DNA of 64,000 nucleotides from Sphingobacteriales bacterium (GTDB lineage Bacteria; Bacteroidota; Bacteroidia; Chitinophagales; LD1), in NCBI GenBank assembly GCA_018262795.1, contig JADFDM010000004.1, positions 123,155 through 187,154 of the forward strand. Direction: 5' to 3'. Of this stretch, positions 41,393 to 64,000 are shown piece after piece. The notes beneath the pieces were generated by a model. It was not told the origin of the DNA and did not search any database. It saw only the letters and a list, made by a program, of their open reading frames with translations. Within the stretch, counting starts at the first letter, position 1; every line of letters begins with the position of its first letter. Position numbers and translations under genes: made by a program.

Positions 41393-41436
41393 AAAAAAGC
41401 AAAACCCCCGTAAAACATAGTGTTTACAAGGGTTTG
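41393..41436 (-). terminator. Terminator left of the island border
   Basis: Minus strand AAACCCTTGTAAAC - ACTAT - GTTTTACGGGGGTTT forms an imperfect stem followed by TTTTGCTTTTTT. It points leftward and has no gene upstream except the tRNA-Asp 3' fragment 22 bases away, as expected for the original terminator of a tRNA-Asp gene split by the island. Confidence 0.6.
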
Positions 41437-41457
41437 TTACTTTTTGAATTGATGTGG

Positions 41458-41470
41458 GCGGACCGGACGG
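41458..41470 (-). other. Candidate attachment site: tRNA-Asp 3' end fragment
   Basis: Minus strand CCGTCCGGTCCGC fits the T-arm 3' half, acceptor strand and discriminator of bacterial tRNA-Asp(GTC). The rest of the tRNA is absent, and an integrase gene starts 236 bases to the right. In this orientation the intact tRNA-Asp should lie at the other (right) end of the island, outside the window. Confidence 0.5.
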
Positions 41471-41705
41471 AGCCCTCCAAAAGTTTCCCGGTATTAGGAG
41501 CTCTTAAATGGTTTTTAGTTTCCCTAAGTAACTCTGTCATTAGGGTAAATGAAAAAATATTAAACATTACAAAGAACCTCTATAAAGTAAACGACTCCCT
41601 GACCGACTCTCCTTCTGCAAGCGAAAAACATCAATTATTCCCGCCAATGTTTCTCAAAATAATCGTTTGCACAATTATAGCTATAACGCTTTTAAATTTA
41701 AAAGT

Positions 41706-43046
41706 ATGGCGCTAAATATAAATTTCAATTTGAAAAATGGAAAACTTGCTAATGAAAGACCTATTAACCTTATAGCAAGATGGAATAACAGAAAACTGGT
41801 TTACTCTACACAAGAAAAAATTTTATCAAAACATTTCGAAACGGAGAAAGGAAAAAGGTATTTCCAAAGAGCAAACTCATCCTTAGCAGGCTTTTCTGAA
41901 TTGAACGCAAGATTGGATTACATTGAATCAACTGCTAATACTGTTTACAGAAAATTTTTAAACGACCAACATCGAATTCCCGAACCAGAAGAGTTTAAGA
42001 AACGTTTGGACGTTGTTTTAAGAAACGGGCAGGAAGAAGAGAAGAAGAACATGATGGAGTTCATCAAGTTTTTTATTGAGAATGCAGAAAAGAAAATAAA
42101 CAGAGATACTGGAAAAAAACTTGCCGTAGAAACTTTAAGGAAGTATAGGAACACTTTAAAACGACTTGAAGAGTTTTCCTCTCTCTATCGTGTAAAAGTA
42201 GATTTTGAAACTATTGACTTGAATTTTTACAATAAGTGGATAGAATACTTAACTATAGATCTACAGCTTTGCAATAATACTATAGGAGGATATACAAAGA
42301 CGCTGAAAGTATTTCTAAATGAAGCTACCGACCTCGGACTAAACACCAACCTAACTTTCAGAAATAAAAGGTTCAAAGTGCTTACTGAAAAAGTTCACAA
42401 AATCTATCTGAACGAAAATGAGCTTATTGAAATTTACAACCTCGACTTATCCGAAGATAAGAGATTGGGGCGGGTAAGAGATTTGTTTCTCGTTGGATGC
42501 TGGACAGGATTTCGCTTTGGTGACCTTGTGAACATTGCACCTGAGAATATAATCGGAAATAAAATCTCTATTAAAACCCAAAAGACGGGAGAGGTTGTAG
42601 TAATACCCCTTCATTGGATGGTTAAAAATATAATGAAATGCTATACAGACTATCCCAATTCGCTTCCTCCGGCAATCTCTAATACCAAAATGAACAAATA
42701 CCTGAAAGAAATTGCTTCTCAGGTTCCTTGTTTGCAAGATAAAGTGCAGTCAAATATTACAAAAGGAGGGAAACTACATACTGAAACAAGGTGTAAGTGG
42801 GAATACGTTACAGTCCATACAGCGAGAAGAAGTTTCGCAACAAATCTTTATCTCGAAGGAATTAGTTCGTTAACCATAATGAAATTGAGTTCCTGGAAAT
42901 CGGAAAAGGTGTTTTTATCTTACTTGAAAGCATCTGCCGAAGACAATGCCAATCTTTTACAAAAGCACTGGTCAGAAAAAGAAAAAGCCGGAGGCGTCTT
43001 GGAACAACAAAACTTATCTCCACATCAACCGCAGCTAACAAGATAA
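41706..43046 (+). CDS. Tyrosine recombinase / site-specific integrase
   Basis: 446 aa from ATG 41706 (the TTG start in the ORF track is 13 codons upstream). Arm-binding N-terminal domain (about 1-80), SAM-like core-binding domain (about 110-210) and catalytic domain. Active-site residues seen: Arg in TGFRFGD (about 270), Lys in KTQKTGE, HTARR (His 371, Arg 374), Trp in place of the second His (SSWKSEK, 397) and the nucleophile Tyr in FLSYLK (406). This is the Bacteroidota conjugative/mobilisable-element integrase class. Sits right beside the proposed attachment site, so it is probably the enzyme that inserted the island. Followed after 3 bases by the DnaA-like gene. Confidence 0.95.
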   Translation: MALNINFNLKNGKLANERPINLIARWNNRKLVYSTQEKILSKHFETEKGKRYFQRANSSLAGFSELNARLDYIESTANTVYRKFLNDQHRIPEPEEFKKRLDVVLRNGQEEEKKNMMEFIKFFIENAEKKINRDTGKKLAVETLRKYRNTLKRLEEFSSLYRVKVDFETIDLNFYNKWIEYLTIDLQLCNNTIGGYTKTLKVFLNEATDLGLNTNLTFRNKRFKVLTEKVHKIYLNENELIEIYNLDLSEDKRLGRVRDLFLVGCWTGFRFGDLVNIAPENIIGNKISIKTQKTGEVVVIPLHWMVKNIMKCYTDYPNSLPPAISNTKMNKYLKEIASQVPCLQDKVQSNITKGGKLHTETRCKWEYVTVHTARRSFATNLYLEGISSLTIMKLSSWKSEKVFLSYLKASAEDNANLLQKHWSEKEKAGGVLEQQNLSPHQPQLTR

Positions 43047-43049
43047 CAA

Positions 43050-43805
43050 ATGAGAAATTCGAAATTGCATTTGATAGGAACCTTCGACACTTACGAAACT
43101 GATGATATACCAAACGCAAAATCTGAATTGCTTCAACTTTTAAATAAACTAGATAAATGGACTTGTGATATTGTTATAGTTCAAAGCGAAGCCGGTAATG
43201 GTTCTACGCATCTACTCCATGCAGCGCTAGTAGAAATTGAAAAGCAAGGAAGACACGCTACGTTTACATACTCCCAGCGACTTTTACAAGCACAAGAATT
43301 TTACTGCACAGAAAAAGGAAGGTTTGTCTATGACGCACGAATACAAGTAAAGACGGAATTTTTTCTGATAGATGGTTGCCACTATTGCGAATCGAAGCCG
43401 GTTTATTACAACTACTTTGTTGGACTTTTAAGGTCTTCAATTAAGCGAGGTGTAAAAATTATTCTTTCAGCAAGGACAGGAAGTTTTATGCAGTTGATTC
43501 AAGATTTTCCGAACTATCATGTTGTTACTTCTGAATTTCCTACTGCTCTACCTCTCTATAATATCATACACATATTGTTCACTTCACACCAGGAATACTG
43601 GAAAGATTTTCTACTAACAGAAGAAACGCAAGTAAGAGCAGTTTGCGCGTTTGCAAATCAATCTTACAATTCGGTGAGACTTTTAGAAACTATGGTATTA
43701 ACGTTTCTCGCAAGTCTCTACCTTGGGAAAATAAAATTGCAAAACGATAACATAGAACCTGTGATTAAAGAATATGTAAACACATTTATTATCAAATATG
43801 GTTAA
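43050..43805 (+). CDS. DnaA/IstB-like AAA+ protein with altered P-loop
   Basis: 251 aa. The segment EAGNGSTHLLHAAL lines up with the DnaA Walker A (GxGxGKTHLLHA), but the lysine is Ser52. Walker B (FFLIDGCHY, about 104-112) has only one acidic residue in place of the usual LLIDD. Later segments (RGVKIILSAR, arginine at sensor-like position) fit a DnaA/Hda/IstB-type fold. ATP hydrolysis looks unlikely; it may bind DNA or regulate replication of the element. Translationally linked to the integrase gene (3-bp gap) and overlapping the next gene by 8 bp. Confidence 0.6.
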   Translation: MRNSKLHLIGTFDTYETDDIPNAKSELLQLLNKLDKWTCDIVIVQSEAGNGSTHLLHAALVEIEKQGRHATFTYSQRLLQAQEFYCTEKGRFVYDARIQVKTEFFLIDGCHYCESKPVYYNYFVGLLRSSIKRGVKIILSARTGSFMQLIQDFPNYHVVTSEFPTALPLYNIIHILFTSHQEYWKDFLLTEETQVRAVCAFANQSYNSVRLLETMVLTFLASLYLGKIKLQNDNIEPVIKEYVNTFIIKYG

Positions 43806-44100
43806 GCAAGTTATACTGACTATTCCTATTCAGGAATTTGAAACGATCATCCGCGACTGCGTTCGGAGTGAACTAAAAAATAACAAAGGTGAACCTCCAA
43901 AAGCCGAAACAGATTTCATACGTGCAAAGGAAGCGGCAGCAATGCTGAAAATCTCCAGACCAACATTGGCTAAATTCACCCGCAACTCGCTCCTGAAAGT
44001 TTACAGAATCGGTCGTACTATTCGCTACAAAAAGGACGAAATAGAAAAAGCTGTTGAGCCAATCCGTGTTATAAAACATTCAAGACTCCAGGTTGGCTAA
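43798..44100 (+). CDS. Excisionase-like helix-turn-helix DNA-binding protein (first copy)
   Basis: 100 aa. C-terminal half is an HTH_17/MerR-type winged helix (TDFIRAKEAAAMLKISRPTLAKFTRNS, then VYRIGRTIRYKKDEIEKA). Such small proteins act as excisionases or regulators in Bacteroidota mobile elements. It overlaps the DnaA-like gene and its stop directly precedes the SymE-like gene. A paralogue lies at 46873-47172. Confidence 0.85.
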   Translation: MVKQVILTIPIQEFETIIRDCVRSELKNNKGEPPKAETDFIRAKEAAAMLKISRPTLAKFTRNSLLKVYRIGRTIRYKKDEIEKAVEPIRVIKHSRLQVG

Positions 44101-46872: not shown

Positions 46873-47172
46873 ATGCCTCAACATCAGGTATCACAGATTT
46901 ACTCCGAAAAGGAGTTGAGAGAAATCTTTAGGGAGGAACTCCGAAACGGGTTAAACATTTATTTCGGCAACCTTCCTAAAGATACTTCGGATTTTATCGG
47001 GACTAAGGACGCCCAAAAAATATTAGGCATCAGTAGTCCTACAATGACGAAGTATGTGCGTATGGGTTTTTTGAAACGGTATAGGATTGGGCACACTTAC
47101 CGATATAAAAGGGATGAGGTAATCAAATGCTTACAGTCAATGCCGTCCGTGAAACATTCAAGAAATAATTAA
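46873..47172 (+). CDS. Excisionase-like helix-turn-helix protein (second copy)
   Basis: 99 aa, paralogue of the protein at 43798-44100: same layout and shared motifs (SDFIGTKDAQKILGISSPTMTKYVRMG, then YRIGHTYRYKRDEV, and a VKHSR tail matching IKHSR). Likely DNA-binding control of excision or of the replication genes that follow 24 bp downstream. Confidence 0.85.
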   Translation: MPQHQVSQIYSEKELREIFREELRNGLNIYFGNLPKDTSDFIGTKDAQKILGISSPTMTKYVRMGFLKRYRIGHTYRYKRDEVIKCLQSMPSVKHSRNN

Positions 47173-47196: not shown

Positions 47197-48672
47197 ATGA
47201 ACAACGAAATAGAAAACGTAAAATTTACTGAAATTTTTGCGCCCGAAATTGATTTTGAAGAAGAAGAGGGTACTGGGAGAATTCAACCAGAAAAAATGGT
47301 TGAGCATGTGAATGAACAGATAGAGTACACTCGAGCGGAAATAATGACCACCGAAAACGAGTTTCCGCTAAATGTACTCCCATTACCGCTTCAGGCAATA
47401 GTAAAAGATACGCATGAAAATCTTGGTTTCCCCGTAGATTTTATCGCAGGGGGAATTCTGTTTGCTGCATCTGGTGCTATTGGCAATACCTATGGGGTCG
47501 AAGTGAAGCGGGATTACGTTGAGAGTGCTTCCATTTTTATTGTTCTTGTTGGTCCGGTAGGCTCGAATAAAAGCCATCCGATGAAATATGGCATTAAACC
47601 CATAAGCGATGAAGACCAAATATCTTACTCTCAATACGAAAATGATAAGGAAACTCATAAACGCAATATGGAATTGTCAAAAAAGGAACGAGAGGAGGAA
47701 GGAATTCAAGATCCAAAACAACCTATTTGGAAGCAACATATTGTCTCCGATGCGACATTAGAAGCATTATTTGAAATACATCATCATAACAGACGTGGCG
47801 TGATTTATTACGTGGATGAAATAATTGGATTGTTTAAAAATTTCAATCGCTATAACAAAGGTAGTGACCAAGAAACTTTTTTAAGTCTCTTCAATAACAA
47901 CCCAATAAACATTTCTCGTAAATCTTCTGATCCAATTTTTCTTACAAAGACTTTTATATCCATAGGCGGAACCATACAAAATGGTGTATTAGTCCAATTG
48001 GCTAAAAATAATCGCCTCGAAAATGGATTAATAAGTAGAATACTTTTTGTAAAACCTAATGGAGTAAAAAAAATGCCTTGGAGTAAATCCAGTCCAAAGG
48101 AGCAAACCTATGAAAGTTACAAAGCGATAATTTTGAGGCTACTGAGTTTACCATGTAGGTATGATGAAACATTAACCCCAACTCCCCGAATACTTCGGTT
48201 TACACCCGAAGCCAAAGAAAGTCTTTATTCATGGCAACGGGATAACGCTACAAAGGTTAATACAGCAGAGACAGAAACCATAGCTGGGATATTTAGTAAG
48301 TTAGACATCTATGTTTCTAGGCTCGCTTTAATATTACACTTATTGACATGGTCTAGCGGGGAAGATAATGGTCAGCCCATTGACCAAATCGGAGTTACAG
48401 CAACCGAGGGTGCTATCAAGTTAGTTGAATATTTTCGAGAGTGTGCTTTACAAGTCAACTCAATTATTTCCAACGATAATCCTCTTGATAAGCTTACGGT
48501 TGACAAGCGACAACTTTATGAGGCATTACCAACAAAATTTACGACCGGTGAAGGTCTTGTAATAGCAATTCAGCTAGGAATCCCCGAAGACACTTATCAA
48601 AAGTGGTTAAAACGTGAGGTAGGAAATCTCTTCAAAAAACCTAAAAAAGGGGAGTATGAAAAAATTGTTTAA
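47197..48672 (+). CDS. DUF3987 primase/helicase-like protein
   Basis: 491 aa. N-terminal acidic leader, then the DUF3987 (YfjI-like) core: NVLPLPLQAIVKDTHENLGFPVDFIAGG, a P-loop GPVGSNKSHP (Asn in place of the usual Gly before Lys), and Walker B VIYYVDEIIGLF. Such proteins occur in phages and integrative elements together with a Toprim or primase partner and are thought to take part in element replication. The Toprim-like gene follows 81 bp downstream. Tail ends KKPKKGEYEKIV. Confidence 0.88.
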   Translation: MNNEIENVKFTEIFAPEIDFEEEEGTGRIQPEKMVEHVNEQIEYTRAEIMTTENEFPLNVLPLPLQAIVKDTHENLGFPVDFIAGGILFAASGAIGNTYGVEVKRDYVESASIFIVLVGPVGSNKSHPMKYGIKPISDEDQISYSQYENDKETHKRNMELSKKEREEEGIQDPKQPIWKQHIVSDATLEALFEIHHHNRRGVIYYVDEIIGLFKNFNRYNKGSDQETFLSLFNNNPINISRKSSDPIFLTKTFISIGGTIQNGVLVQLAKNNRLENGLISRILFVKPNGVKKMPWSKSSPKEQTYESYKAIILRLLSLPCRYDETLTPTPRILRFTPEAKESLYSWQRDNATKVNTAETETIAGIFSKLDIYVSRLALILHLLTWSSGEDNGQPIDQIGVTATEGAIKLVEYFRECALQVNSIISNDNPLDKLTVDKRQLYEALPTKFTTGEGLVIAIQLGIPEDTYQKWLKREVGNLFKKPKKGEYEKIV

Positions 48673-48753: not shown

Positions 48754-49749
48754 ATGAATGAACATCGCTACACACTAGAGTCCTATATACGCAAAGCAAT
48801 CCGGATTCGCTGCACCATATGTCAAGATAGTAGAAAGACCTTTACGCGCTATGTTGACACTGAGACCGGAGAATACTTGGCGGACCATGTTGGCAAATGC
48901 AGTCGGGAAATTAAGTGTGGTCATCACTACCCACCCATCGAGTTTTTTAAGGAACCTAGAGTAATACCTGTTGACGAAGCAAACCTTTTTGGAAGACCTT
49001 CTAAAAAGGTCTCTATTAACGAACATCCGGAAACTAAATCGTCTATTGATAGTTCAATATTTCAGGGAAGTCTGAAACATTATGAATTAAACAAACTGGT
49101 CAAATTTTTAGAAACCCGTTTTGGCAAGTCGGTAGTTAAAAATTTGGTTGAAAAATATTACATAGGTTCTTCAAAGCATTGGAATGGAGCTACGGTATTC
49201 TGGCTGGTGGATGGAGATAATCAAATACGAAGCGGTAAAGTAATGCTATATGATCCGACCACTGGCAAAAGGGTAAAAAAGCCACGTAATAAAATCAATT
49301 GGGTGCACTCGGTTTTGGATCTAAAAGGCTTTAAAGTGGAACAATGCTTATTTGGTGAACATTTGCTTAACGGTAATTCCAAGCCAATTGGAATTGTTGA
49401 GAGCGAGAAAACAGCGCTTATTGCAAGCGTTTATTTACCTCAGTTGACCTGGTTAGCAACCGGAGGTCTCTCAAATCTAAATGAGCGTGTTTGCAAACCA
49501 CTCACCGGACGCAACGTTTGCTTATTTCCGGATGTCCAAGGATTTCAGAAGTGGAGCGATAAGGCAAAAAAACTTTCAGGAATTACAAATTTTAAAGTCT
49601 CCGATCTGTTAGAAAAAAATGCTTCTGAACAAGAACGCGAGCAAGGATTAGATTTAGCCGATTATTTACTCAGATTTGATTACAGAGATTTTTTAAAACT
49701 TCAGAATCTGGAAATTGAACAACCGGTGACTGCCAGTATTGCCTTGTAA
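48754..49749 (+). CDS. DUF6371/Toprim-like replication protein
   Basis: 331 aa. N-terminal zinc-binding region (IRCTICQDS, then KCSREIKCGHHYPP) as in Bacteroidota PG0870/DUF6371 proteins, a middle domain, and a Toprim-like core with IGIVESEKTALIAS (catalytic Glu) and VCLFPDVQGFQKW (DxQ, a weakened DxD). Toprim proteins make primers or handle strand exchange. With the DUF3987 protein it probably forms a replication module of the island. Last gene of the rightward half; it ends facing the radical SAM gene. Confidence 0.82.
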   Translation: MNEHRYTLESYIRKAIRIRCTICQDSRKTFTRYVDTETGEYLADHVGKCSREIKCGHHYPPIEFFKEPRVIPVDEANLFGRPSKKVSINEHPETKSSIDSSIFQGSLKHYELNKLVKFLETRFGKSVVKNLVEKYYIGSSKHWNGATVFWLVDGDNQIRSGKVMLYDPTTGKRVKKPRNKINWVHSVLDLKGFKVEQCLFGEHLLNGNSKPIGIVESEKTALIASVYLPQLTWLATGGLSNLNERVCKPLTGRNVCLFPDVQGFQKWSDKAKKLSGITNFKVSDLLEKNASEQEREQGLDLADYLLRFDYRDFLKLQNLEIEQPVTASIAL

Positions 49750-51901: not shown

Positions 51902-54670
51902 TTATGTTTCTTCCTCAAAGTTCAACCCTAACTGTTTAGCCGACTCTTTTGCCACTTTATACTCCTGACTCGATTCAGTAATTGGTTTTGATGCTGTCGA
52001 TTTCCCTTTGATACGGATTTCAATTTCTATGTTGTTTTGTGAAAGAGGCATGATGAAACCCGAAAACAAATTCGTGTATTGCTCTAAAGGAACCTTGCCA
52101 GAGATGGTAATTGATTTGATTTTTTTCGCTGAATTGTTGTCATCCTTTGTATCCGTTGTCGTATTGTTCCCAGAATCATTCCAAGTTGCAGGAGGAGTGT
52201 CAATATCCGGTGTATCATTTCCTGCTGTTGAAGTTTGTTGTGGCTGCGGTTTTAAGCTTTTATCAATAAGCCAATAAGTAGTGTCGTTTATATCGAAGAA
52301 GGAAACACTTTCCTGTAAGAAGTATTTTGTAAAGTTTTTACCATCACCGGTTGCAATGCAGTACTCTCCGTTGAAACAATACTTCAAAATACTTTTCTCA
52401 ACTGCCTCCGTTCCTGTTATCATCGGCTTATCATCAAAGCGAATGAATGCTTCGTAAATGTCGTTTGCGCGAATGGGTTGTTCAACTGTTGGAAAAAGAT
52501 TGTTGCTTTTCAAAGTCCCCAATCCTACTGATTCCAGGAGCCATTCTTCTTCTTTAAGTGCAGCAATAATGTTGTTGTTGATTTGGCTTTCTAAGTTGTC
52601 TTTGAATTGTTTAATCACTAGCTTCTCCATTCCGTTTTTTACAGAATACTTTAGTATGATTGAGTAAGCGGAAACCAATGAAATATCTGCTTGCTTATTG
52701 TGGTCGTCTATTTTTCTTCTGATTTCCTCTTTCTGCTCTTTCTCTAACTGCGAATTGTATTCGGAACTGATTTTCTGACAAGCCAAATAATTTCTCAAAT
52801 CATCCTGCAATTTGCCGAAACCATTTTCAGAACAACCGAGAAACAACATGGTGTTGCGATAAATTCTTTCGCTGTTACCTTTTTTGGTTGCTAATTTTTC
52901 AATCAGGTTTTTTGTGCTACCGGATATTTCATTGGGATTGGCTAAGTATTTAGGACTTAGAATTACAAGTGTAGGTCTCTTTTGTTCCGGTATATCTTCC
53001 GATGGATTCACGAGTGTATTAAACAATTGAACCAATCTTGTTTTCTCTGAAATTCGTTTTAGAATTTCCGCAATGATGTCGTTTGATTTAATGTCGCCCT
53101 TGCCCTGATTGATTAAGATGTTGATGTTTGGAGTAGTATCAAACCAAAATCTTTTTTGTCCTGTGGAGTTATAATACAAATAATGTGCATTGGTCTGCAT
53201 CCTGTCAAGAGCACCGTTTATGTCGTTATGGTTGAAACCTTCGGGTTTTACCATGCAGAGTTTTATTTCATCTATACCCACCCCCTTGTTTTGACCCTTT
53301 GAACCGAAGGTTCCCATAAGGATTGTTGCTGCTGCTCCTTGTGAGATGTTGTGGGCACCAAGACCTTTTACTTCATTATCAATTTTGAAAGCATTAGATG
53401 AAGTGCCCGAAATATCTGCATTAATAACAGCATCCCAACTCGGACCATTTAAGATAGTAATTTGACTTGTGAGTGATTCAAGATTTGAAAGAGTTACATC
53501 GGATGTATGAATTAGGAACTGGCTACCGGTTAGAGATGTTTGCCTTTTCCATAGATCAGAAATTATAGACGCTAAAATTCTAAGCACCCCTCTTGTCCGT
53601 TGAAAATACGGATTGCTTGCCCAACGTAAGCGGAACATATCAATCAATTCAGGATGGAAAGGGTATGATTTTTTTAATCGTTCCTTGTAATCAGTTTTTA
53701 ATGCATAAGCTGGAATCTCGGTAAGCATTGACTGATACATGATAGCATAGGCACTAATTACCTTCTCTATTTCCCTTTCATCTCCCAAATCTTCAAACAA
53801 CCTTCTACGCACTACTTCAAAAATTTCATCATCCTCTACAGGCTTCATATTTGCACCTACTCTTGTAATTCTGTTTTCAAGTGCTGTAAGAATTTGAGAG
53901 GAAACCGGTGAAGCAGCCAATTCCTGAGCACTTGCCGGAAGAGTTGCAATCAATACGCATTGGTCTGTTTCGGAAACTGCTTCGGTGAGTTCCTGCATGA
54001 AACTGACCGTTTGGTCGCTGAGGTTTGACGCTTCTACTTTTACTGCCGATGCACTTACACAGTAATCAGCCAACTCGTCAATGAGTATTAAAGCTGGTTT
54101 GCATTTCTCTAATACTTTTTTGAAAAGCCCTTTGGGCGCAATTCGTTTTTCATCGTTTACCCTAATGATTTCATAGGCTTCTTTCCCTCCTAACTGGTAA
54201 GCTAATTCCCCCCATATAGTTTGAATAGTAATGCCATTTACTTTTCTGCCTTGGGCAGGATCGTTGGTAGTGTTAGTGAAAACGGCAATGTGTGCGGTAT
54301 CAAATTTAGGCGCACCGGTGAACGCAATTAATTCTTTTGTGTTTTCGCTTTTAGTTGCTGTTTTGCCCCACTTCGCCAAATGATAAAGTGATATTAAGGT
54401 GTGTGTTTTACCACCACCAAAACCAGTTTGTAAAGAAATTACCCTATTGTCTGCATCTTGCCCTCCGTTTAAGCCATGAACTACTCTTTTGGCAATATTT
54501 TTTAGGGCAGCGGTAAAAAATGTTTTCTGAAAAAACATTTCGGGGCTAGTGTAAATTTCTCTCCCCTTACCGGATGCAACTTCAGCAAGGTTGGCGGCAA
54601 AAACCGATTCATCCAAGTGTCCATCCTGAATATCTTTGTGGGGCTTTACGTTTTTAAACCAGGGTTTCAT
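51902..54670 (-). CDS. DUF499 anti-phage-associated ATPase
   Basis: 922 aa. P-loop TGFGGGKTH (82-90) and Walker B PALILIDELADY (192-203) belong to the DUF499 family of AAA+-like ATPases that occur with DUF1156 methyltransferases and large helicases in defence islands. The C-terminal part has an acidic/Gln-Thr-rich linker (about 790-840) and a small end domain (ITISGKVPLEQYTNLFSGF). The start codon overlaps the previous gene's stop by one base (TAATG), so translation is coupled. Presumed cytosolic partner of the helicase and methyltransferase below. Confidence 0.9.
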   Translation of the reverse strand: MKPWFKNVKPHKDIQDGHLDESVFAANLAEVASGKGREIYTSPEMFFQKTFFTAALKNIAKRVVHGLNGGQDADNRVISLQTGFGGGKTHTLISLYHLAKWGKTATKSENTKELIAFTGAPKFDTAHIAVFTNTTNDPAQGRKVNGITIQTIWGELAYQLGGKEAYEIIRVNDEKRIAPKGLFKKVLEKCKPALILIDELADYCVSASAVKVEASNLSDQTVSFMQELTEAVSETDQCVLIATLPASAQELAASPVSSQILTALENRITRVGANMKPVEDDEIFEVVRRRLFEDLGDEREIEKVISAYAIMYQSMLTEIPAYALKTDYKERLKKSYPFHPELIDMFRLRWASNPYFQRTRGVLRILASIISDLWKRQTSLTGSQFLIHTSDVTLSNLESLTSQITILNGPSWDAVINADISGTSSNAFKIDNEVKGLGAHNISQGAAATILMGTFGSKGQNKGVGIDEIKLCMVKPEGFNHNDINGALDRMQTNAHYLYYNSTGQKRFWFDTTPNINILINQGKGDIKSNDIIAEILKRISEKTRLVQLFNTLVNPSEDIPEQKRPTLVILSPKYLANPNEISGSTKNLIEKLATKKGNSERIYRNTMLFLGCSENGFGKLQDDLRNYLACQKISSEYNSQLEKEQKEEIRRKIDDHNKQADISLVSAYSIILKYSVKNGMEKLVIKQFKDNLESQINNNIIAALKEEEWLLESVGLGTLKSNNLFPTVEQPIRANDIYEAFIRFDDKPMITGTEAVEKSILKYCFNGEYCIATGDGKNFTKYFLQESVSFFDINDTTYWLIDKSLKPQPQQTSTAGNDTPDIDTPPATWNDSGNNTTTDTKDDNNSAKKIKSITISGKVPLEQYTNLFSGFIMPLSQNNIEIEIRIKGKSTASKPITESSQEYKVAKESAKQLGLNFEEET

Positions 54671-55617
54671 TAGTTAAATTTTTTAGTTGGAAGATGCCCA
54701 CCAATGTAACCTACAATGTATCTGTTGTTCTCTGGTAGCGGCATCGGATATAGGTAAATTCTTACATCTCCAAGTTTAGAGTGAAGAGAAAAAGTTCTTC
54801 GTACTTGATCGGGACATGTAAAAGTGCGTTCGTCACCATACATTGACATTGTAGTTTCTCCATCATTACTTACATCGCCAGGAATAGAACCAATTTCAGC
54901 TTCACCCCGATTCACTAAATTTAAATGCTGGTTTAATTGCATTAAATACCTCATGGCTTTTTTAAAGCTTGGGTTATTAACTGAGCCGAATAATTGAACT
55001 TGTTCGTTTACTTCATTAGCAAAATCCAACCATTGAAATACCATCGCGCGATTTGCCCAAAATGCATTAAAATCCTCTAACTCCTTTGCCGCAGTAGCTT
55101 GCTTTCTTCCAAATTCCTCTTGTATCCAATTCGAGTATTCTAACTCTTCTTCATTCTTCACACAGTGTTTAACTGTTACCTCTTCAATTACAACATCTGA
55201 ATCAGCATCCGGTAAATACTCTCTTGTAAGTCTATACTCGTTTTCTATCCAAACGCTGTTAGTTGAAAAACTTACAGAAACCAAATCATTCTCAAATGCA
55301 TAACCAAATCCTACTACATCTGTGTTAGCATGTTTAAAGTAAGGGTTATCTGCAATTAAAGGTTGCTGAGCTATATACCCCAAATATCTTTGACGAGTTG
55401 GATTTTCAAGAGTTTGAAGCCAATCCTTAATACAAAAAAATTGGTCGGATATAGAATTAGTGTTTATGTCGGTTGACGACCTGATTCTTACCGGAGCAAT
55501 TTTCAATTCAGTAATTGAATCAATCAACTGAAAAAAACTTTCAAACACACTTACCGCATGCCCCTTTGATGCAGCACGTTCGTAAAAACTTAATTCATTG
55601 AAGCCAACTTCTATCAT
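54670..55617 (-). CDS. Unknown protein between DUF3696 ATPase and DUF499 ATPase
   Basis: 315 aa from ATG 55617; the ORF-track start at 55677 overlaps the ATPase gene by 55 bp and adds 20 unlikely residues. No family recognised. Mixed alpha/beta, acidic, with a helical centre (QEEFGRKQATAAKELEDFNAFWANRA) and a beta-rich end (DVRIYLYPMPLPENNRYIVGYIGGHLPTKKF). 5 bp after the DUF3696 gene, one-base overlap with DUF499. Its location suggests a partner of the DUF3696 ATPase, for example the effector or nuclease part, but no catalytic motif can be named. Confidence 0.75.
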   Translation of the reverse strand: MIEVGFNELSFYERAASKGHAVSVFESFFQLIDSITELKIAPVRIRSSTDINTNSISDQFFCIKDWLQTLENPTRQRYLGYIAQQPLIADNPYFKHANTDVVGFGYAFENDLVSVSFSTNSVWIENEYRLTREYLPDADSDVVIEEVTVKHCVKNEEELEYSNWIQEEFGRKQATAAKELEDFNAFWANRAMVFQWLDFANEVNEQVQLFGSVNNPSFKKAMRYLMQLNQHLNLVNRGEAEIGSIPGDVSNDGETTMSMYGDERTFTCPDQVRRTFSLHSKLGDVRIYLYPMPLPENNRYIVGYIGGHLPTKKFN

Positions 55618-55622
55618 CGTTA

Positions 55623-56759
55623 TTATAATAGTTCCATCATTGAATATTCCCAAGAATCGAAGAAGTCTTTTGGCCAATTTTCAATTTTCCCTTTATTAGT
55701 AATCACAGGATATTCGATTACATGCTTTTGTTTGTCGTCTTCGGGTTTTGTTTTAAAAAATAATAGCCTAACTTGTTCAGGAGTAATTAGCTCTCGTTTT
55801 GCGGCAATTCTTACTCCGTTTAAAATATGGTCTGAATGAGTTTCAACTATAATTTGGACACCATTGGCTGCAGCTCTTGCTAATAATATTCCTAATTCGA
55901 CCTGGCCTTTCGGATGGATATGAGCTTCGGGGTTTTCCAACAACAATATTGTTCCAGGCTCAGATGCCAATACTGCAAGAATTAGAGGAAAAACGTAGGT
56001 CAATCCAAACCCAACGTTGTTTGCTCGATATGCTCCCGGATTATCCTTAGATACCAAAAATTCAAACTGAAGAGTAATGGTTCCCGCTTCGGGTTGGTCT
56101 TTGATTCGAGCTTGCGCCCCAGGTCTTATAACACTCAACCATTGGTTTACTTGAGAATAAAGAGATGGGTTAGGATCTGCCTCATTCCCATTTGCATCCC
56201 GATTTGTATATTTTAAATTTTCAATCGGAATCTTCTTTTCACGATATACGCTAAAGTAGTTGGCGGCAAATTCACCACGAACACCTAGTTGATTCTGATG
56301 CATTACTTTAGTGGAGGACGTTTCGTAATAAGGACGTGGGCCAATTCGCTCAGCACTTAAATAGTGAAAGTTGCTAGTAAACAATGGGACTTTACTTAAG
56401 TCCGTGCCCATATTAGTATTGGCAATTTCAATGAGTGAATCGAGATTATCATCTGCCCTCCATACCCAGCCTAATGTAACACCTGGATTGTACGTAAACG
56501 TTATACCTATTTCCTTCTTCTTAAAATAGCGATACAATATATCGTTACTATTACCAATTTGTGTGTAATCACCATTTAAGCCTAATCTATGATTCAGGTG
56601 AAGAAGGCCATTCTCAAAATTTTGCCTCAACAATAACAGCGACTGAATTACCGAGGATTTACCCATGCCATTAAGACCGGTAAGTAGATTCAGGTTTGAT
56701 AAATGAATGGGTTCATCTTCAAAGCATTTGAAGTTTTGAAGTCGCAACGTTTTAATCAT
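55623..56759 (-). CDS. AAA ATPase with DUF3696 (SMC/ABC-like, defence type)
   Basis: 378 aa. ABC/RecF-like ATPase: Walker A GLNGMGKSS (28-36) after IKTLRLQNFKCFEDE, signature and Walker B GTILLLENPEAHIHPKGQ (about 268-285), His switch VETHSDH, and a C-terminal DUF3696 tail (GKIENWPKDFFDSWEYSM). Related to OLD/Gabija-A and other DNA-end or phage sensing ATPases, but without the Toprim nuclease domain. Overlaps the DUF262 gene by 8 bp. Probably works with DUF262 and the next protein as a sub-module in the cassette. Confidence 0.9.
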   Translation of the reverse strand: MIKTLRLQNFKCFEDEPIHLSNLNLLTGLNGMGKSSVIQSLLLLRQNFENGLLHLNHRLGLNGDYTQIGNSNDILYRYFKKKEIGITFTYNPGVTLGWVWRADDNLDSLIEIANTNMGTDLSKVPLFTSNFHYLSAERIGPRPYYETSSTKVMHQNQLGVRGEFAANYFSVYREKKIPIENLKYTNRDANGNEADPNPSLYSQVNQWLSVIRPGAQARIKDQPEAGTITLQFEFLVSKDNPGAYRANNVGFGLTYVFPLILAVLASEPGTILLLENPEAHIHPKGQVELGILLARAAANGVQIIVETHSDHILNGVRIAAKRELITPEQVRLLFFKTKPEDDKQKHVIEYPVITNKGKIENWPKDFFDSWEYSMMELL

Positions 56760-57894
56760 TGATAATTTCTTTTAAGAGATTCCTGATTTTATCGTGTCTT
56801 CTATTCACAGAAAGTGTGTCGCCCGTGCCGGAGGAGATAGAACGCAAAAAATCCGCATCTTTATTTGATAAATACATTAAACCTTGGTCAATTCGCCTCG
56901 CGTTGGCTATTAATTTCTTATGGTCGTTTTCACTTATAAGAGCTAAAGCAACGGAAATGCACTCAAATAAAGCTTTATTCACAGGCCTTCTTCTCTCTCC
57001 ATCCTCGTATTTTTTTCTAAAAGCGTATTTGCCAAAAACCTGATTAGCCGTAACCATGGCCCTTTTAAATCGAGTTTTAATATCAGCGATTTCAGCAGGA
57101 GTTTTAGAATTTACTTTAGCCATCCCCCTATTCAGAAAAGAATCAAGGTCTGGCTCATAATTTTCCTTATCAAGATAAAAAGAAAGGAACCGAGTTGTGT
57201 AATCACGGTCTTCCATGCGATCACTCGGAACATAACCTCCCATAGCTGTTATAAACTCCGGCATACGTGCTAGCTCTGCCACCAATTTTGCAGGTTCACC
57301 TTGGTTTAATGCGTGGCGAATTTCTTGAGGGGTAAGAACAAGACCACCTGTATTAATGCGTTTGAAAATATTGAATTTAGCCTCATAAGGAGTCCCCGGA
57401 TTAATAATATAAGCCGTCACATGGGTTTCTTCGACTCTTGATTTAAGATACTCAGGAAAATCATCCCATCCGAAGCCCTCGTAGTTTTTCAAGTATTCCA
57501 AACCCACTAACTTGAAATTCTTTTCAATAATAAAATTCTTCAAGGTGCTAACTCTTTGCAGTCCATCTACAATTAACCAAATATCCTCTGTTGCATCAAA
57601 ATAAAAAGCAGGCAATGGGATTCGAACAAGTAAAGATTCTATCAAACGACTTTGGGCAACTATGCTCCACAAATTTGCCTTACGCTGAAATTCCGTATCC
57701 ATTTTGATCCGCATGGGATCGCTTTGCAATCTTTTAATAATTGATTGAATAGTTAACGGTTGTGGTCTAATGTCAATTTTGGTTGGATCAAATGGATGTT
57801 TAATAGATGTTTCGCCAGTCTTTTCCGTTTCCGCGAAAGGAACTTGGTCTAAAGCTTCATCGTCCGCTTTCCGTAAATTTTCTATCTCTCCCAT
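56752..57894 (-). CDS. DUF262 (ParB/Srx-like) protein
   Basis: 380 aa. DUF262 signature FQRKANLW (69-76) and VDGLQRVSTL (109-118; usually DGQQR), plus INTGGLVLTPQEIRHAL. DUF262 domains bind or hydrolyse nucleotides and occur in GmrSD-type restriction of modified phage DNA; the DUF1524 HNH nuclease half of GmrSD is absent here, so nuclease activity would need a partner. Start overlaps the DUF1156 stop by one base (TAATG). Confidence 0.9.
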   Translation of the reverse strand: MGEIENLRKADDEALDQVPFAETEKTGETSIKHPFDPTKIDIRPQPLTIQSIIKRLQSDPMRIKMDTEFQRKANLWSIVAQSRLIESLLVRIPLPAFYFDATEDIWLIVDGLQRVSTLKNFIIEKNFKLVGLEYLKNYEGFGWDDFPEYLKSRVEETHVTAYIINPGTPYEAKFNIFKRINTGGLVLTPQEIRHALNQGEPAKLVAELARMPEFITAMGGYVPSDRMEDRDYTTRFLSFYLDKENYEPDLDSFLNRGMAKVNSKTPAEIADIKTRFKRAMVTANQVFGKYAFRKKYEDGERRRPVNKALFECISVALALISENDHKKLIANARRIDQGLMYLSNKDADFLRSISSGTGDTLSVNRRHDKIRNLLKEIIND

Positions 57895-60800
57895 TACTCA
57901 AACATTTTAATTTGTTCAACCTGCGCTCCTTGCACGGTTTTGCTTTCACGAATTAAACTTTCTTTATTGGTGAGCAAACCTAATGCTTGTTTTTGGTCTT
58001 CGCTGCCTGCGGGTAATACCTCGCAAAGTGAAGTGACTACTCTCCAAAAACTGTTCTCCGGTTGTGCTGCTTCTTTTGCAATGTAATGCAAAAGTGCATT
58101 ACGATTGGTGCCTTTGTAAAGTGACATAGCTTTATGCACTGTATCTATTAAAAAATTGTTTGCCCGCTCACCCAAGTTTTTATTGGCAGCAATACGTTCT
58201 TCAAAAGTTGCAAGGGTTTGTTTGTTGCCATTTTTAGTAAGAATGTGTTCAGTAAAAAGTTCCGACACATTGATGCTTAAACCTACTCTTGAAAACTTCG
58301 CTGCATCATCAAAATCACTTTCTGCAAAACTGTAAAGCTGTAACCAACCAATATAAAACTTAGTGAAATCATCTCCATCAAAACCCTTAAGCAAGGCATT
58401 GAAAGCACTCTCTCTTGCCATTTCTAAAAGTTCTGCGACAGTTACTTCACTACCATCTGCTTTTTCTACCTTTTCATATTTACCAAACTCACTTACTGCC
58501 TGACCAAAACAAGCCGTTAATAAATCTGCACCACGAAAACCTAATTTGTATAATTCATCAACTTCCTTTTCAACCGTTTTTTCTATCGCTTTTTTCACCT
58601 CTTTAAATTCCCCCAAACCTGTTTTTATGGATGGGGTGCAAGTAACTGTAACTGAAGAGGAGAGAAATGCTTTGTTGGTTTTTAATGCTACTGTTTGTTC
58701 TGTGTCAATAGCCCAACTACCCGTGATGTTCATATTACCACCTAAAATTGAATTACAAAGTGTTGTCCACGCCTCGGTGCTTTGATGGGCAAACATAATG
58801 CTCACTATATCTTTCGTTTGCTTTTCTATCAGTGAGAGAATCTCTAACAATTTATTTTCAAAATGTTTCACTGCTTGTTTCTTGTCACCGTCAAAGTGAG
58901 ATTTGATTGCGGTGCATTCATCCGATTTCGGAGTCAAGGGGGTTGAAAAATTGTAAGTATAAATATGCCCTATACTTCTCTTTAACCAAACGTAATAAAA
59001 GTCCGAAAGGTCGGCATAAGCAATAGCATCATAGTATGGAGGGTCTGTTACAACTGCATCAATTTCCTTATTCGAAAATTGTTGGTGAGTGCCGCTCGAA
59101 GTATTGACGCAGTTTGAATAATTAAAATGCTGACCTTCACTTTCTACAAGATTTACTATTGGTTCTATTTGACCAAAAGCACTACCGGACAAAGTGCTGA
59201 AGGGATTCATTTCAGGATAATCGAAAACCATCGGGATAGATTTATTACCGAAAGGATGTTCTACTGTCTCTTGCAGCACATGCCAAACACTGATGCTCGT
59301 ATATCTTGTAATTATTCTATCAATAAATATTGAGATATAGGTCTGTAAACATTTAGAATAATCTGGCTCAAAAAATGATGACCGTTCTTTGAATAGTTTT
59401 AGCTGATTCTCAATAAAACTATTTATGATAGCCGCTTGACGATCATTAAATAAATCACCGTATTTTTTTATACCCCACAACGGAACTTTGACATTTTGAG
59501 AGTCATTTGTAGGCATTAACTCTTGAGGTCTTTCAGTTTGAATAGCAGTTACGGTTAAGTCTTCAGTCGGGCTTTCATAAGACCTATCACCTTTTTTATT
59601 CTCATAAATTATCGCAAGCAATTTTTCTTTGATGCCTTCCGAATTAAATTGACGCTTAATTTCCTCAACTTTTGTAATACTTCCACAACAAGGACACTTC
59701 AAATTACCTTCCTTATTCCAACCTAACTCTTCACAAACACCACGCTTTACTTTAAAGGAAATTTTCTTTCCGGAAATTGATGGCTCTAAGTAATACCAAT
59801 CAATTGATGAATAATTTCTCCTTTTTGAGATGTAAAATTGTCTTAGTAAAGGAACTTCAGCTTTGCATGTTGGGTTAGAACAAGTGCCCAACCTTGCCCA
59901 ATAATAAATCAGCGGAATAGAGCCATCTTTTTTGCTTGGATATAAATACCCAAATTTCTCCTTTGTCTGCTCAATTAAATGTTTTGAAAAGAAATCAATG
60001 TCAAAAGAAAGGCGGTTGGGAATTCTTACTCCACTAAGATTGCCATTCTCATACACAAAATTTTCCGCCTCTAATTTGTTCCATTCGGCTTTGCCATAAA
60101 GTTTCATGAATTCGGCAATGCTGTAAGTTATCGGTTTGCCAAACTTCTGCGGAAATTCTAAACTCCCCTTTTGTATAATATGTGCAACGGGGTTAATATC
60201 ATTTCCAAAACTTCTACAACCTAATCGTGCTGCTTCTAAAGGTATAGCGCCACCACCGGCAAAAGGATCAAATACCTTAGGCATTTTGTTTAGGAATGCC
60301 TCAATAGCTTTATTTAAATTGACTGTTGCCTGCTGAGTATTACCAGAGCATAAATGACGGTCCGTAATAGAATAGAGTTCTTGTTCGGCTTTTTTTATTG
60401 CCTGATAGTGAATATCAAAATCTCTCAGCAAATCTGTCGCAGAAAGATTGCTGTTGTCATTACTGTTGTGCGAAACCCAAATCAGTTTTCTTGCCTTACC
60501 AAGTATTCGTTCATCGTCCTTTTTCTCCCATTTTATTAAACTGTAATCGCTAATAAGTTTTGCTGTTGGCGTTGCCTTACCTGCTTTTTCGTTTGTAGAA
60601 TACTCTATAGAAAATTTACCAATGAACATCATTAACCGGTTGCGAAGGTTATCTTCCATTTTGTCAATGGCAGCGGTATAAGGAATATCATCATAGGGTT
60701 TATAAGCATTTGCATTTATGCCTTGTTCGTTCAGTGGTTTTTTTGCACTACCTAATAAAATTTCAACTGCATCGCGAAACTGTTGCGGACAGTTTTCATC

Positions 60801-60980
60801 TAAAGGGTCGGGAACTAAACTTGCAAAAACAACAGCACGGCAAACTGGCAATGGCCGTCTTGCCCACCAAAGGTGCAGTGTAGAAATATGCCCGTGACGA
60901 ATGGATTTGTCACGCACACTTTCAGCCGATATTTCTTTTATCGGCATAGCTACTTCAATTAGTTTTTTTGCTTTGGTCAT
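57894..60980 (-). CDS. DUF1156 anti-phage-associated DNA methyltransferase
   Basis: 1028 aa from ATG 60980, which overlaps the helicase stop as ATGA; ATG 60998 six codons upstream is possible. N-terminal DUF1156 domain (KKLIEVAMPIKEIS, GHISTLHLWWARRPLP), methyltransferase motif I FDPFAGGGAIPLEAARLG, CxxxxC and CPCC zinc pairs in the middle, and catalytic motif IV VVTDPPYYDAIAYADLSDFYY, that is an N4-cytosine or N6-adenine methylase. Family members are the modification part of helicase/DUF499 phage-defence cassettes. The target sequence is unknown. Confidence 0.92.
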   Translation of the reverse strand: MTKAKKLIEVAMPIKEISAESVRDKSIRHGHISTLHLWWARRPLPVCRAVVFASLVPDPLDENCPQQFRDAVEILLGSAKKPLNEQGINANAYKPYDDIPYTAAIDKMEDNLRNRLMMFIGKFSIEYSTNEKAGKATPTAKLISDYSLIKWEKKDDERILGKARKLIWVSHNSNDNSNLSATDLLRDFDIHYQAIKKAEQELYSITDRHLCSGNTQQATVNLNKAIEAFLNKMPKVFDPFAGGGAIPLEAARLGCRSFGNDINPVAHIIQKGSLEFPQKFGKPITYSIAEFMKLYGKAEWNKLEAENFVYENGNLSGVRIPNRLSFDIDFFSKHLIEQTKEKFGYLYPSKKDGSIPLIYYWARLGTCSNPTCKAEVPLLRQFYISKRRNYSSIDWYYLEPSISGKKISFKVKRGVCEELGWNKEGNLKCPCCGSITKVEEIKRQFNSEGIKEKLLAIIYENKKGDRSYESPTEDLTVTAIQTERPQELMPTNDSQNVKVPLWGIKKYGDLFNDRQAAIINSFIENQLKLFKERSSFFEPDYSKCLQTYISIFIDRIITRYTSISVWHVLQETVEHPFGNKSIPMVFDYPEMNPFSTLSGSAFGQIEPIVNLVESEGQHFNYSNCVNTSSGTHQQFSNKEIDAVVTDPPYYDAIAYADLSDFYYVWLKRSIGHIYTYNFSTPLTPKSDECTAIKSHFDGDKKQAVKHFENKLLEILSLIEKQTKDIVSIMFAHQSTEAWTTLCNSILGGNMNITGSWAIDTEQTVALKTNKAFLSSSVTVTCTPSIKTGLGEFKEVKKAIEKTVEKEVDELYKLGFRGADLLTACFGQAVSEFGKYEKVEKADGSEVTVAELLEMARESAFNALLKGFDGDDFTKFYIGWLQLYSFAESDFDDAAKFSRVGLSINVSELFTEHILTKNGNKQTLATFEERIAANKNLGERANNFLIDTVHKAMSLYKGTNRNALLHYIAKEAAQPENSFWRVVTSLCEVLPAGSEDQKQALGLLTNKESLIRESKTVQGAQVEQIKMFE

Positions 60981-63900
60981 TTCACTTTCTGTTTCCATTC
61001 TGCCATCGGCAAAAAGTATTGCACTCCTTTTGTCTTCAACTCAAATTTTAATGCCTTAGCAGGGTTTTGTATGCGGTGCAGTTCGGGTTTGCTTTTGCAG
61101 TTCATTACAATATACAACCAAGCGGCATCGCCTAACTGTGCCAGGCGGTTCATTTCGTTTTCACTGAGCATTACACTGCCGTCACCGGCACTTCTGCCCT
61201 TTACTTCAATGTAGCGTTTCATTTCTTCGGGGCTAATGCTGCGAATATCGTAGCCCTCATTGTATTTGCTTCTGTCTTCGGGTTTCCAACCTGCACTTGT
61301 TTCATAATCCATTGCTTCTTTCATAGCAATTGCTTCGGCTTCATCATCGCGGCTCATGCCGTAGTGCCCGTTGTATTCTACCTCCGTAAGCGGCACTACA
61401 TAGGCACAGCCCAGCACTTCGGGTGCTTTAGGATTTAGTTGTGCCATTAGTTCTAAACTTTCTAAACGGGTTTGTTTTTTGCTGATGAGTTCGTTAATGC
61501 GTTCCTGTTTTTTCAAACTCTTTTCCTGCATCCGTGCATCGCCCAATAAAACTTTGCCTTGCATTTCCTGAATTTGCACCTGCAAATCCATTATCACCTG
61601 AGTGAAAGCGGATTCCAAATACTTTTTCCGGTCGGCAGAATCTTTCAGCACATGGGTTTTGGTATCTTCAAATTGTTGCTGTGTAATATTTTCAAAACTC
61701 CACTCCACTATTTCTGCGGTGCTGATTACCGGAGGCGGTTGAATAGGCGAAGCAAAATCGGCAGGAGCATGTAGGTCAATAAATTTAGCCGGTGAAGTGA
61801 GATGGAACGCTCTGTCTTTTGTTTGGTAAACCATTACCAAACGTTCATCGGCAATGCTGTCGTCTTTTTTGCTTGCACGGCTATCTACAATCTGGCTCTT
61901 TACAAAAAAAGCGAAGTAATCTTCTTTGTCATCGGGCGAAATAAGCACCGTGCCTTTGAGCATGTCTTCGCGATACAGATTGCGAACCACTTTTATTAAA
62001 CTGTCGAAAACCGGATTGCCCGGATTGATGTAATGCACTTTGCCTAAATCGCCTACGCTTTGGTAGTCTAAAAAAACCTGCTTATCAAAACAAAACTGAA
62101 TAGAGCGAATGGCATCGAAGTGAATTTTGTAATTGTCTTTAAGTTCGGCAATTACTGCATCAGGCATTTTATCAATTCGGAAAATGGAAGGTCTTAACTC
62201 GGTAAAAACGCCCCCTAAATTGGTAAATGCTTTCTCGAAAAATAAACGGATGTAGATGGGCTGCAAACGTTTTTCATCGGAGTTCTCTTTGAGCGTTCTT
62301 GCATCTTTGTAATCAACGGTGCTGTGGGCTAACTTATCTTTCTGCTCTTTTATTTTCTCTTTGAATTTCAATTTCAGCACTTCATCATCCTGTGCCAAGA
62401 ACCGGTTTAGGTCGGTTTCTTTTCCATTGAAAACGGAATCAATAATATCATCCAAGCCCACGCCTTCTAACACATCCTGAATTACATCATACACGCGGTC
62501 GTCACCCATACCTTCGCGAATGATGTCGAGTTTAGTCAATAAGCGTTCTAATACTTTCCCTTCTTTGGTGTTACCGGCTACCATGTTGAACACTAACACA
62601 TCCTTCTTTTGTCCATAGCGATGAATACGCCCCATTCGCTGCTCTAAGCGATTTGGATTCCAAGGGATGTCCCAATTGATGAGCAAACGGCAAAACTGCA
62701 AGTTGATACCCTCACCGGCTGCATCGGTAGCAATGAGAATTTGAGTATCGGGTTTCGCAAATGCCCACTGTGCTTCTCTACGTTCGTCCACTAATTTGCC
62801 TCCGTGAATGGTGGCTACTTTGTAGCCGCCACTTTTAGTTAGGCGTTCTTCTAGGTAAAGCAGCGTGTCTTTGTGTTCGGTGAAGATGACGAGCTTTTCT
62901 CCGTTTTCTAAAACGCCATTTGATTTGAGTAACTCCTGTAATTCCTGAAACTTTTTTTCTTCCTGCTTACGGTTGTAAAGTGTTTGAGCCATCTCAAACA
63001 ACTTCTTTACCTCACCGGCTTCCTGTTGTATCTCCTGCAAACTTTTTGCAGTAGTAAAAAGTTTGAATTTTCTAGGGTCAGAAAGAATATTTTCTAAGGC
63101 ATCTCTTTCATCATCTTCTAACTCTTCATATTCTTCGATGTTATCTACATCAAAGCCGTCTAATTTATGACGCTGGCTCCAAAGATTCGGATTCTTGTTT
63201 ACTTCATCTACAATGCCCTGCAATGCTTTCCATCTTCTCTCCAATGTATTTTTGATAGCAAAGATTGAACTCACCAATCTCCGTTGCATTACCGTCAATG
63301 CCAGTGAAACGTGAATATTTTTAGTTTCTGATGCTTCGTCCTTTTTCTTTGTAAGGTAACGCGTTACTGCATCATACAGTTCTTTTTCTTCAGGTGAAAG
63401 CTGGTAGGCAACTGTTTTGGTAAACCGGTTTTTGAAAAGCGGTTTGCCTTGCCAATCTTTCATGTCTTCCTTTAACCTGCGAATGAAAAATTTATTGATG
63501 CCGTTGTGCTCCAATTCTTTGATTCGAGCGGAGGCAATTTCATCGGTAGCAAAAATGTCTTCATCCAATAACTGTAATAATTTTTTGAAAGTGTCTGTTC
63601 TGCCTCTGTGTGGTGTGGCTGTGAGCAACAAAAGATGCTCACACTGTTGGGCTAAAACCTGAGCCGCTTTGTAACGTTGGGATAGATACTGTTTGCTTCC
63701 GTAATCGTAAGCAGAAAGTTTGTGGCACTCATCAAACACAATTAAGTCCCAATGCGAGTTACTCGCTACATTCAACACATCTTCGCGTGAAATGAAATCA
63801 ATGGATGTAACAATGCGGGGTGCTGTATGAAATACATTCGGGTCGGAGGAAAACAAACTGCGATTTACTAATGTGAAAGGGATATTGAATTTTACTCCCA

Positions 63901-64000
63901 TTTCATCTTCCTGCCACTGCTTGGTTAATCCTCCGGGAGTTATAATTAAAATTCTTTCTACCAAACCACGCATGATTAACTCCTTAATGAGCAAACCGGT
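60977..64000 (-). CDS. SNF2/RapA-like helicase with DUF3883 domain (N-terminus outside window)
   Basis: The frame is open to the right edge; the TTG at 63994 in the ORF track is not a start, since the preceding in-window codons (Thr-Gly-Leu) continue the usual ...[12 protein letters not shown] segment after Walker A. About 1007 residues seen: helicase motifs Ia to VI ([55 protein letters not shown]), a long helical middle, and a C-terminal DUF3883 domain ([22 protein letters not shown]), a nuclease-like fold found in DISARM-type and related defence helicases. First gene in view of the cassette. Confidence 0.92.
   Translation of the reverse strand, partial: [1007 protein letters not shown]

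Follow-up and report, generated by a model that had tools for sequence, protein, structure and literature searches.

Genomic islands in tRNA genes are textbook material, and the fate of the tRNA terminator at such sites is rarely considered. Among the closest described systems, the mobilizable element NBU1 and its relatives in Bacteroidota target tRNA-Leu, tRNA-Ser and tRNA-Pro (PMC5704250). At ICEKp1, ICEclc and ICEEc1, which likewise occupy tRNA genes, the terminator of the tRNA ends up, after insertion, at the far side of the element (PMC13023037). In Riemerella anatipestifer, a 10K island with an IntN1-like integrase lies at tRNA-Arg, and both its excision and its integration have been shown experimentally (PMC6764341).

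The locus analysed here was found in a window of 64,000 nucleotides (C14:123155-187154) from a 3.48-Mb genome in 19 contigs. It resembles the NBU1-like elements in its tyrosine integrase, its use of a tRNA 3' end, its Bacteroidota host and a short direct repeat that restores the tRNA. NBU1 and NBU2 encode a MobP relaxase, whereas no relaxase or conjugation genes were found among the island ORFs scanned with Pfam. As in ICEKp1, ICEclc and ICEEc1, the tRNA terminator is displaced to the far end; in those elements, however, int lies beside the intact tRNA, is co-directional with it and is read from the tRNA promoter, whereas here int lies at the opposite end by the tRNA fragment and the island has its own predicted terminator behind the tRNA. 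The Riemerella island, a flavobacterial island, is similar in having its integrase at a tRNA. In our reading, the printed 53-bp repeat of the Riemerella island appears to include a terminator-like hairpin, so that both ends would carry the same terminator, whereas the present island has a 13-bp repeat and two differing terminators.

Border core, intact tRNA-Asp and flanking chromosome

The original prediction held that a minus-strand piece at this border fits the 3' end of tRNA-Asp and that an island's right border would hold the intact gene, again on the minus strand. Positions 41458-41470 read CCGTCCGGTCCGC on the minus strand, an exact match to the last 13 nt of tRNA-Asp(GTC). This core, GCGGACCGGACGG, is present in exactly two copies in the 3.48-Mb genome, both on C14, in the same orientation and 28,360 bp apart; about 0.02 chance copies per genome were estimated from base composition, the reversed control pattern of the 13-mer had no copy in the genome, and no third copy of the core was found there. 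A complete minus-strand tRNA-Asp(GTC) at C14:192972-193046, 5.8 kb past the right end of the window, has the second copy as its 3' end. ARAGORN found no tRNA-Asp in the window, and a search of the genome for further close tRNA-Asp copies found none. The direct repeat measures exactly 13 bp; beyond it, the two ends show no similarity that could be aligned. The predicted gene thus exists 28.36 kb to the right and shares the core, agreeing with the prediction in isotype, strand, side and range (about 100 kb).

With high confidence, 41458-41470 is regarded as the left edge (attL core) of a 28,360-bp, putatively mobile defence island that its own tyrosine recombinase placed in the 3' end of the only tRNA-Asp gene detected. 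The features at this border are as follows.

41402..41435, minus strand: stranded terminator hairpin, assigned to the element-borne class by hairpin and T-run, z of -5.2 and profile score of 28.1, no other window site exceeding 23
41458..41470, minus strand: attL core, displaced tRNA-Asp(GTC) fragment, exact repeat of the intact tRNA-Asp 3' end
41592..41609, plus strand: pair of sites CGACTCCCTGACCGACTC with 12-bp period, predicted to be the left arm-type pair; in this genome the motif is confined to the ends of the island
41667..43046, plus strand: tyrosine recombinase (integrase), identified by Pfam, PHROGs and alignment; the start may be the ATG at 41706

In the proposed mechanism, the integrase would recombine its own attP with the 13 bp that end tRNA-Asp, and the 5' part of the tRNA would be joined to the identical core of the element. 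The tRNA-Asp gene would stay whole because this core is identical to the displaced end. The former tRNA terminator would move with the displaced fragment to the far (attL) end, and the right end of the element would supply a replacement hairpin, at C14:192926-192958, beginning 13 nt from the tRNA 3' end. Arm-type sites for the integrase would be found at a distance of 55 nt from the core at the tRNA end and of 117 nt at the int end, and the hairpin at 41402-41435 would have served an earlier member of the family as its replacement terminator.

The epimerase and/or the sigma-54 regulator upstream of tRNA-Asp also adjoin tRNA-Asp in G001, G003, G009, G011 and G017, congeners only about 64–77 % identical in the epimerase. 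Because the same right-hand neighbours recur in congeners, tRNA-Asp can be taken as part of the right-hand chromosome. Island-free relatives without a tRNA-Asp at this position would have counted against the original prediction; six genomes of the genus, including the present one, keep the gene beside the same right-hand genes. The gene is also seen without the island in congeners, for example in G003, where it adjoins the same sigma-54 regulator. The left-flank genes (TPP enzyme and GDPD) are kept together in G008, G001 and G016, away from tRNA-Asp. For this reason, no joined empty site with the island's own left flank abutting tRNA-Asp was seen in the genomes examined, the left-flank DNA and GDPD having been searched for in congeners.

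Two further observations concern these flanks. Left of the border, a Fic-family gene (window 40314-41175) is divided by a frameshift that splits 40837-41175 from 40314-40832, and an older insertion possibly left this broken gene behind. About three 107-bp tandem repeats, 98 % alike, immediately precede the intact tRNA-Asp on its upstream side (L006:9135-9465, equal to C14:193034-193364), and each of them holds the first ~42 nt of the tRNA in degenerate form. A degenerate 5' copy is also present upstream of tRNA-Asp in G307 (L132), and G011 has a second near-complete tandem copy of the gene.

The hairpin beyond the tRNA-Asp fragment

The hairpin at 41435-41402 has 13 pairs and a T-rich tail, points leftward and is separated from the core by 22 bases (41436-41457). 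Its minus-strand fold was calculated at -20.1 kcal/mol (z = -5.2), with none of 200 shuffles as good, which bears out the leftward terminator proposed 22 bases past the fragment. It was likewise correct that this terminator has no gene to serve, as no nearby gene on the island side reads into it and the Fic pseudogene on the left reads leftward, away from it.

A DNA match in G027, a similar terminator behind tRNA-Glu, led to an element-borne terminator class. To this locus (L011) also belong paired GTCCCC repeats behind the tRNA-Glu, and it is likely an element of the same layout. The training set of a terminator profile consisted of 15 element-borne hairpins and excluded the sequences of the window itself. 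The hairpin at 41402 scores 28.1 on this profile and is the top site of the window, the only other site above 16 being its own reverse strand, whereas seven congener tRNA-Asp terminators score -14 to +5.6. Among 30 tRNA loci retrieved from the same genome, tRNA-Asp alone has an element-type hairpin behind it.

The original prediction had described the hairpin as the orphaned terminator of tRNA-Asp. Its orphaning from tRNA-Asp is upheld, but a native host origin is probably wrong given the element-borne type. The difference in score makes a relic of an earlier element the more likely origin, and on its sequence type 41402-41435 is quite probably a replacement terminator left by an element that occupied this tRNA earlier. 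With the terminator of an earlier element stranded at the border, tRNA-Asp would probably be a site of repeated insertion.

The main alternative is that the stranded hairpin is the native host tRNA-Asp terminator and that the present island is the first element at the site. This would match most attL sites of the family, which carry host-type-looking terminators at variable distance (the score does not exceed 2.2 for 30 of 34 attL terminators). High scores are confined to the remaining four, those of L163, L195, L182 and the window. It would also match a tRNA-Asp fragment in G014, the terminator of which is demonstrably the one directly behind tRNA-Asp in G004 (37 of 37 nt identical), and the position of the window's own hairpin, which begins about 21–22 nt from the core rather than at the usual 10–15 nt of the element type. 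A native terminator is nevertheless unlikely, as the score lies inside the element class and outside the range of the congener tRNA-Asp terminators, and a single one of the 30 tRNA loci has such a hairpin. At L195, an arm-type pair lies directly behind the stranded terminator, as expected for an older neighbouring element; at the corresponding place behind the 41402 hairpin, no arm pair was found in the window. Because the window shows neither this arm pair nor a third core, we infer the earlier element from the type of the hairpin.

Gene content of the island

The integrase matches Pfam Phage_integrase and the PHROG integrase group, has SAM-like and catalytic domains, keeps the conserved R, HxxR and Y residues and lies 209 bp from the core. 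In this protein (41667-43046), the sequence SSWKSEK is found, with W replacing the H of the TGHKSEK found in most relatives. Behind the integrase gene come genes for an ATPase-like protein, two HTH_17 proteins, a WG-repeat protein, a DUF3987 protein and a DUF6371 protein, and then a row of minus-strand genes matching defence profiles.

43798..44100, plus strand: HTH_17 protein, excisionase-like, from domain search, with homologues in most related elements
46873..47172, plus strand: second HTH_17 protein, from domain search
47197..48672, plus strand: DUF3987 helicase-like protein, from domain search
48754..49749, plus strand: DUF6371 protein with zinc ribbon, primase-like, with a homologue in the 6.1-kb element of G307
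51902..54670, minus strand: HmaC-like AAA+ ATPase (DUF499), PADLOC-DB profile
54670..55677, minus strand: NsnC-like, PADLOC-DB profile
55623..56759, minus strand: NsnB-like AAA ATPase, PADLOC-DB profile
56752..57894, minus strand: NsnA-like (GmrSD_N), PADLOC-DB profile
57894..60998, minus strand: HmaB-like DNA methylase (DUF1156), PADLOC-DB profile
60977..64000, continuing past the window to C14:187556, minus strand: HmaA-like helicase, PADLOC-DB profile

Beyond the HmaA-like gene, the order of the island continues with MkoA- and MkoB-like genes and then tRNA-Asp. The PADLOC-DB models gave strong matches for HmaA/B/C, NsnA/B/C and MkoA and a weaker match for MkoB, and the island cargo is predicted to be mainly phage defence. 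This would tie defence cargo in Bacteroidota to one definable carrier. In comparison with the Hma, Nsn and Mokosh systems, the NsnABC-like genes, as predicted from profiles, are interposed here between HmaB and HmaC in one overlapping row (window 51902-64000, L006:1-3657), and the arrangement may represent either nested systems or one larger system. The G+C content changes from ~0.43 left of the border to 0.35–0.41 inside the island. The combination of int, a small HTH regulator and primase-like genes is as found in phage satellites (PICI-like); packaging and capsid-interference genes had no match among ten island ORFs scanned with PHROGs.

The island could instead be a composite, in which an integrase/primase unit was joined by a separately gained defence block and the inner junction was lost. 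The related bounded elements are 2.3–11.3 kb in size, as limited by the fetched flanks, and none has Hma or Mokosh homologues, as would fit a smaller unit with later cargo. Against this, the genome has no third core copy and no third arm pair of the island's own motif, and a composite origin is considered improbable relative to a single element bounded by the two cores.

The attP layout in relatives and tRNA-Asp in congeners

A profile scan of contigs with integrase alignment gave 80 Bacteroidota loci, or 81 with the present one, in which tRNA fragments were sought with a small library of tRNA 3' 13-mers from the loci themselves. At 40 of the 81 loci, the 1 kb upstream of int holds an exact tRNA 3' fragment on the strand opposite to int, compared with 5 of 1325 random 1-kb regions. 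Within 60 nt of the fragment, 36 of these 40 loci have an outward terminator (random positions, 182 of 1325, 14 %). At 27 loci, the far end carries an intact minus-strand tRNA of the same isotype, 2.3–28.4 kb away, these distances being bounded by 10-kb flanks except for the window's own island. Some loci without an exact fragment have tRNA-like sequence, judged without formal scoring, at the position predicted by the layout, and at L199, L213 and L222 int adjoins an intact tRNA instead. The relatives are mostly draft genomes or MAGs, and G010 has an N gap inside the tRNA. The island belongs to a large family of tRNA-targeting Bacteroidota elements.

Individual members display the same anatomy. 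In G010 (integrase 60 % identical) and in G307, from another family (40 %), a tRNA-Asp fragment and a terminator lie ~200–235 bp from int, and the G307 element, 6.1 kb in size, ends at an intact tRNA-Asp. The integrases of G006 and G011 (65 % identical) adjoin a tRNA-Met fragment with a terminator. At the level of nucleotide identity, the G014 and G004 comparison shows terminator displacement directly, though the G014 fragment adjoins a different integrase. This C3 fragment of G014 was also considered as the mate of an attR on C57, a pairing that was dropped because the different integrase adjoining it is oppositely oriented.

Across the elements, attP has a common order of core, element-borne hairpin centred ~29 nt from the tRNA and a pair of repeats with 12-bp period at ~55 nt, with a matching repeat pair ~117 nt inside the other end, towards int. 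Of 20 elements with a detected tRNA-side hairpin, 17 have its centre at 28.5–30.5 nt or close to this, whereas the attL hairpin centres scatter from 13 to 39. The common hairpin shape is AAACCCTTGTAAA-loop-TTTACAAGGGTTT. When 16 hairpins were aligned without gaps, a set including the window's own attL hairpin, 95 % of cells paired; this pairing is expected because members were picked by hairpin position, and the compensatory changes are the informative part. Both sides had changed in 32 cells, covering 10 of the 13 pairs, with none of 500 shuffles reaching this and slid controls far lower.

The tRNA-side arm pair lies 55 nt from the core (IQR 53–56), and the int-side pair 117 nt from it (IQR 115–119). 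Scores of at least 8 of 9 were obtained for 26 of 27 elements on the tRNA side and 24 of 27 on the int side, compared with 2–3 % of shuffles, and the position of the window's own left arm pair agrees with 25 of the 27 elements. The motif varies by element, with left and right arms agreeing at 17.9 of 20 positions within an element and 14.4 (sd 1.4) between elements. In the 3.48-Mb genome, the paired motif of the present island is found only at the two island ends, which is no independent test because the motif was read off these ends. Once overall relatedness was allowed for, the motif did not significantly track the N-terminus of the integrase (partial Mantel r 0.15, p 0.054). The paired 12-bp-period repeats are probably arm-type binding sites of the integrase; in the present island, these would be 41592-41609 and C14:192897-192914.

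As the relatives show, islands of this family bring along a predicted replacement terminator for a tRNA that insertion has parted from its former terminator. A role of the hairpin in recombination, through protein binding or DNA structure and not in termination, would explain the nearly fixed spacing to the core and arm sites and is compatible with a fold that covaries. This role is rather doubtful, however, given the terminator-like G+C-rich stem base followed by a T-run and the few members that have another hairpin build, or none detected, at this position. Coincidence of an unrelated 13-mer match with an unrelated hairpin, conceivable for as short a match as 13 nt, is refuted by a core with exactly two genome copies, one ending the predicted tRNA on the predicted strand, and by the recurrence of the arrangement in dozens of relatives.

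Returning to the replacement terminator, it is fairly probable that integrases of one broad family in Bacteroidota, with elements at Asp, Met, Phe, Arg, Gln, Leu, Thr and Pro tRNAs, share a common attP with a covarying, position-fixed replacement terminator and element-specific arm pairs, and that repeated occupation strands old terminators as a record. A large integrase family appears to solve the loss of the terminator by means of a replacement fixed in attP. An attP with built-in replacement terminator and paired arm sites is a more interesting result than the island itself. With the shared layout, element borders could be called from sequence without an empty-site strain, and stranded terminators may reveal the earlier use of a site. 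In the open literature searched, no description of an element-borne replacement terminator was found, whereas terminator displacement was (PMC13023037).

The tRNA-Asp gene abuts other apparent element ends in G006:C226, G010:C169, G009:C191, G001:C24 and G017:C19. These ends have other repeat motifs, GTGCATGT or GTGTAAAACA, mostly with a 12-bp period. This suggests that tRNA-Asp is a shared insertion hot spot in the congeners. In G015 (L095) and G011 (L096), a small gene resembling a GIY-YIG nuclease, identified by eye, directly follows tRNA-Asp; the tRNA 3' end and/or the terminator is duplicated close by, and the whole is a possible mini-element at this tRNA.
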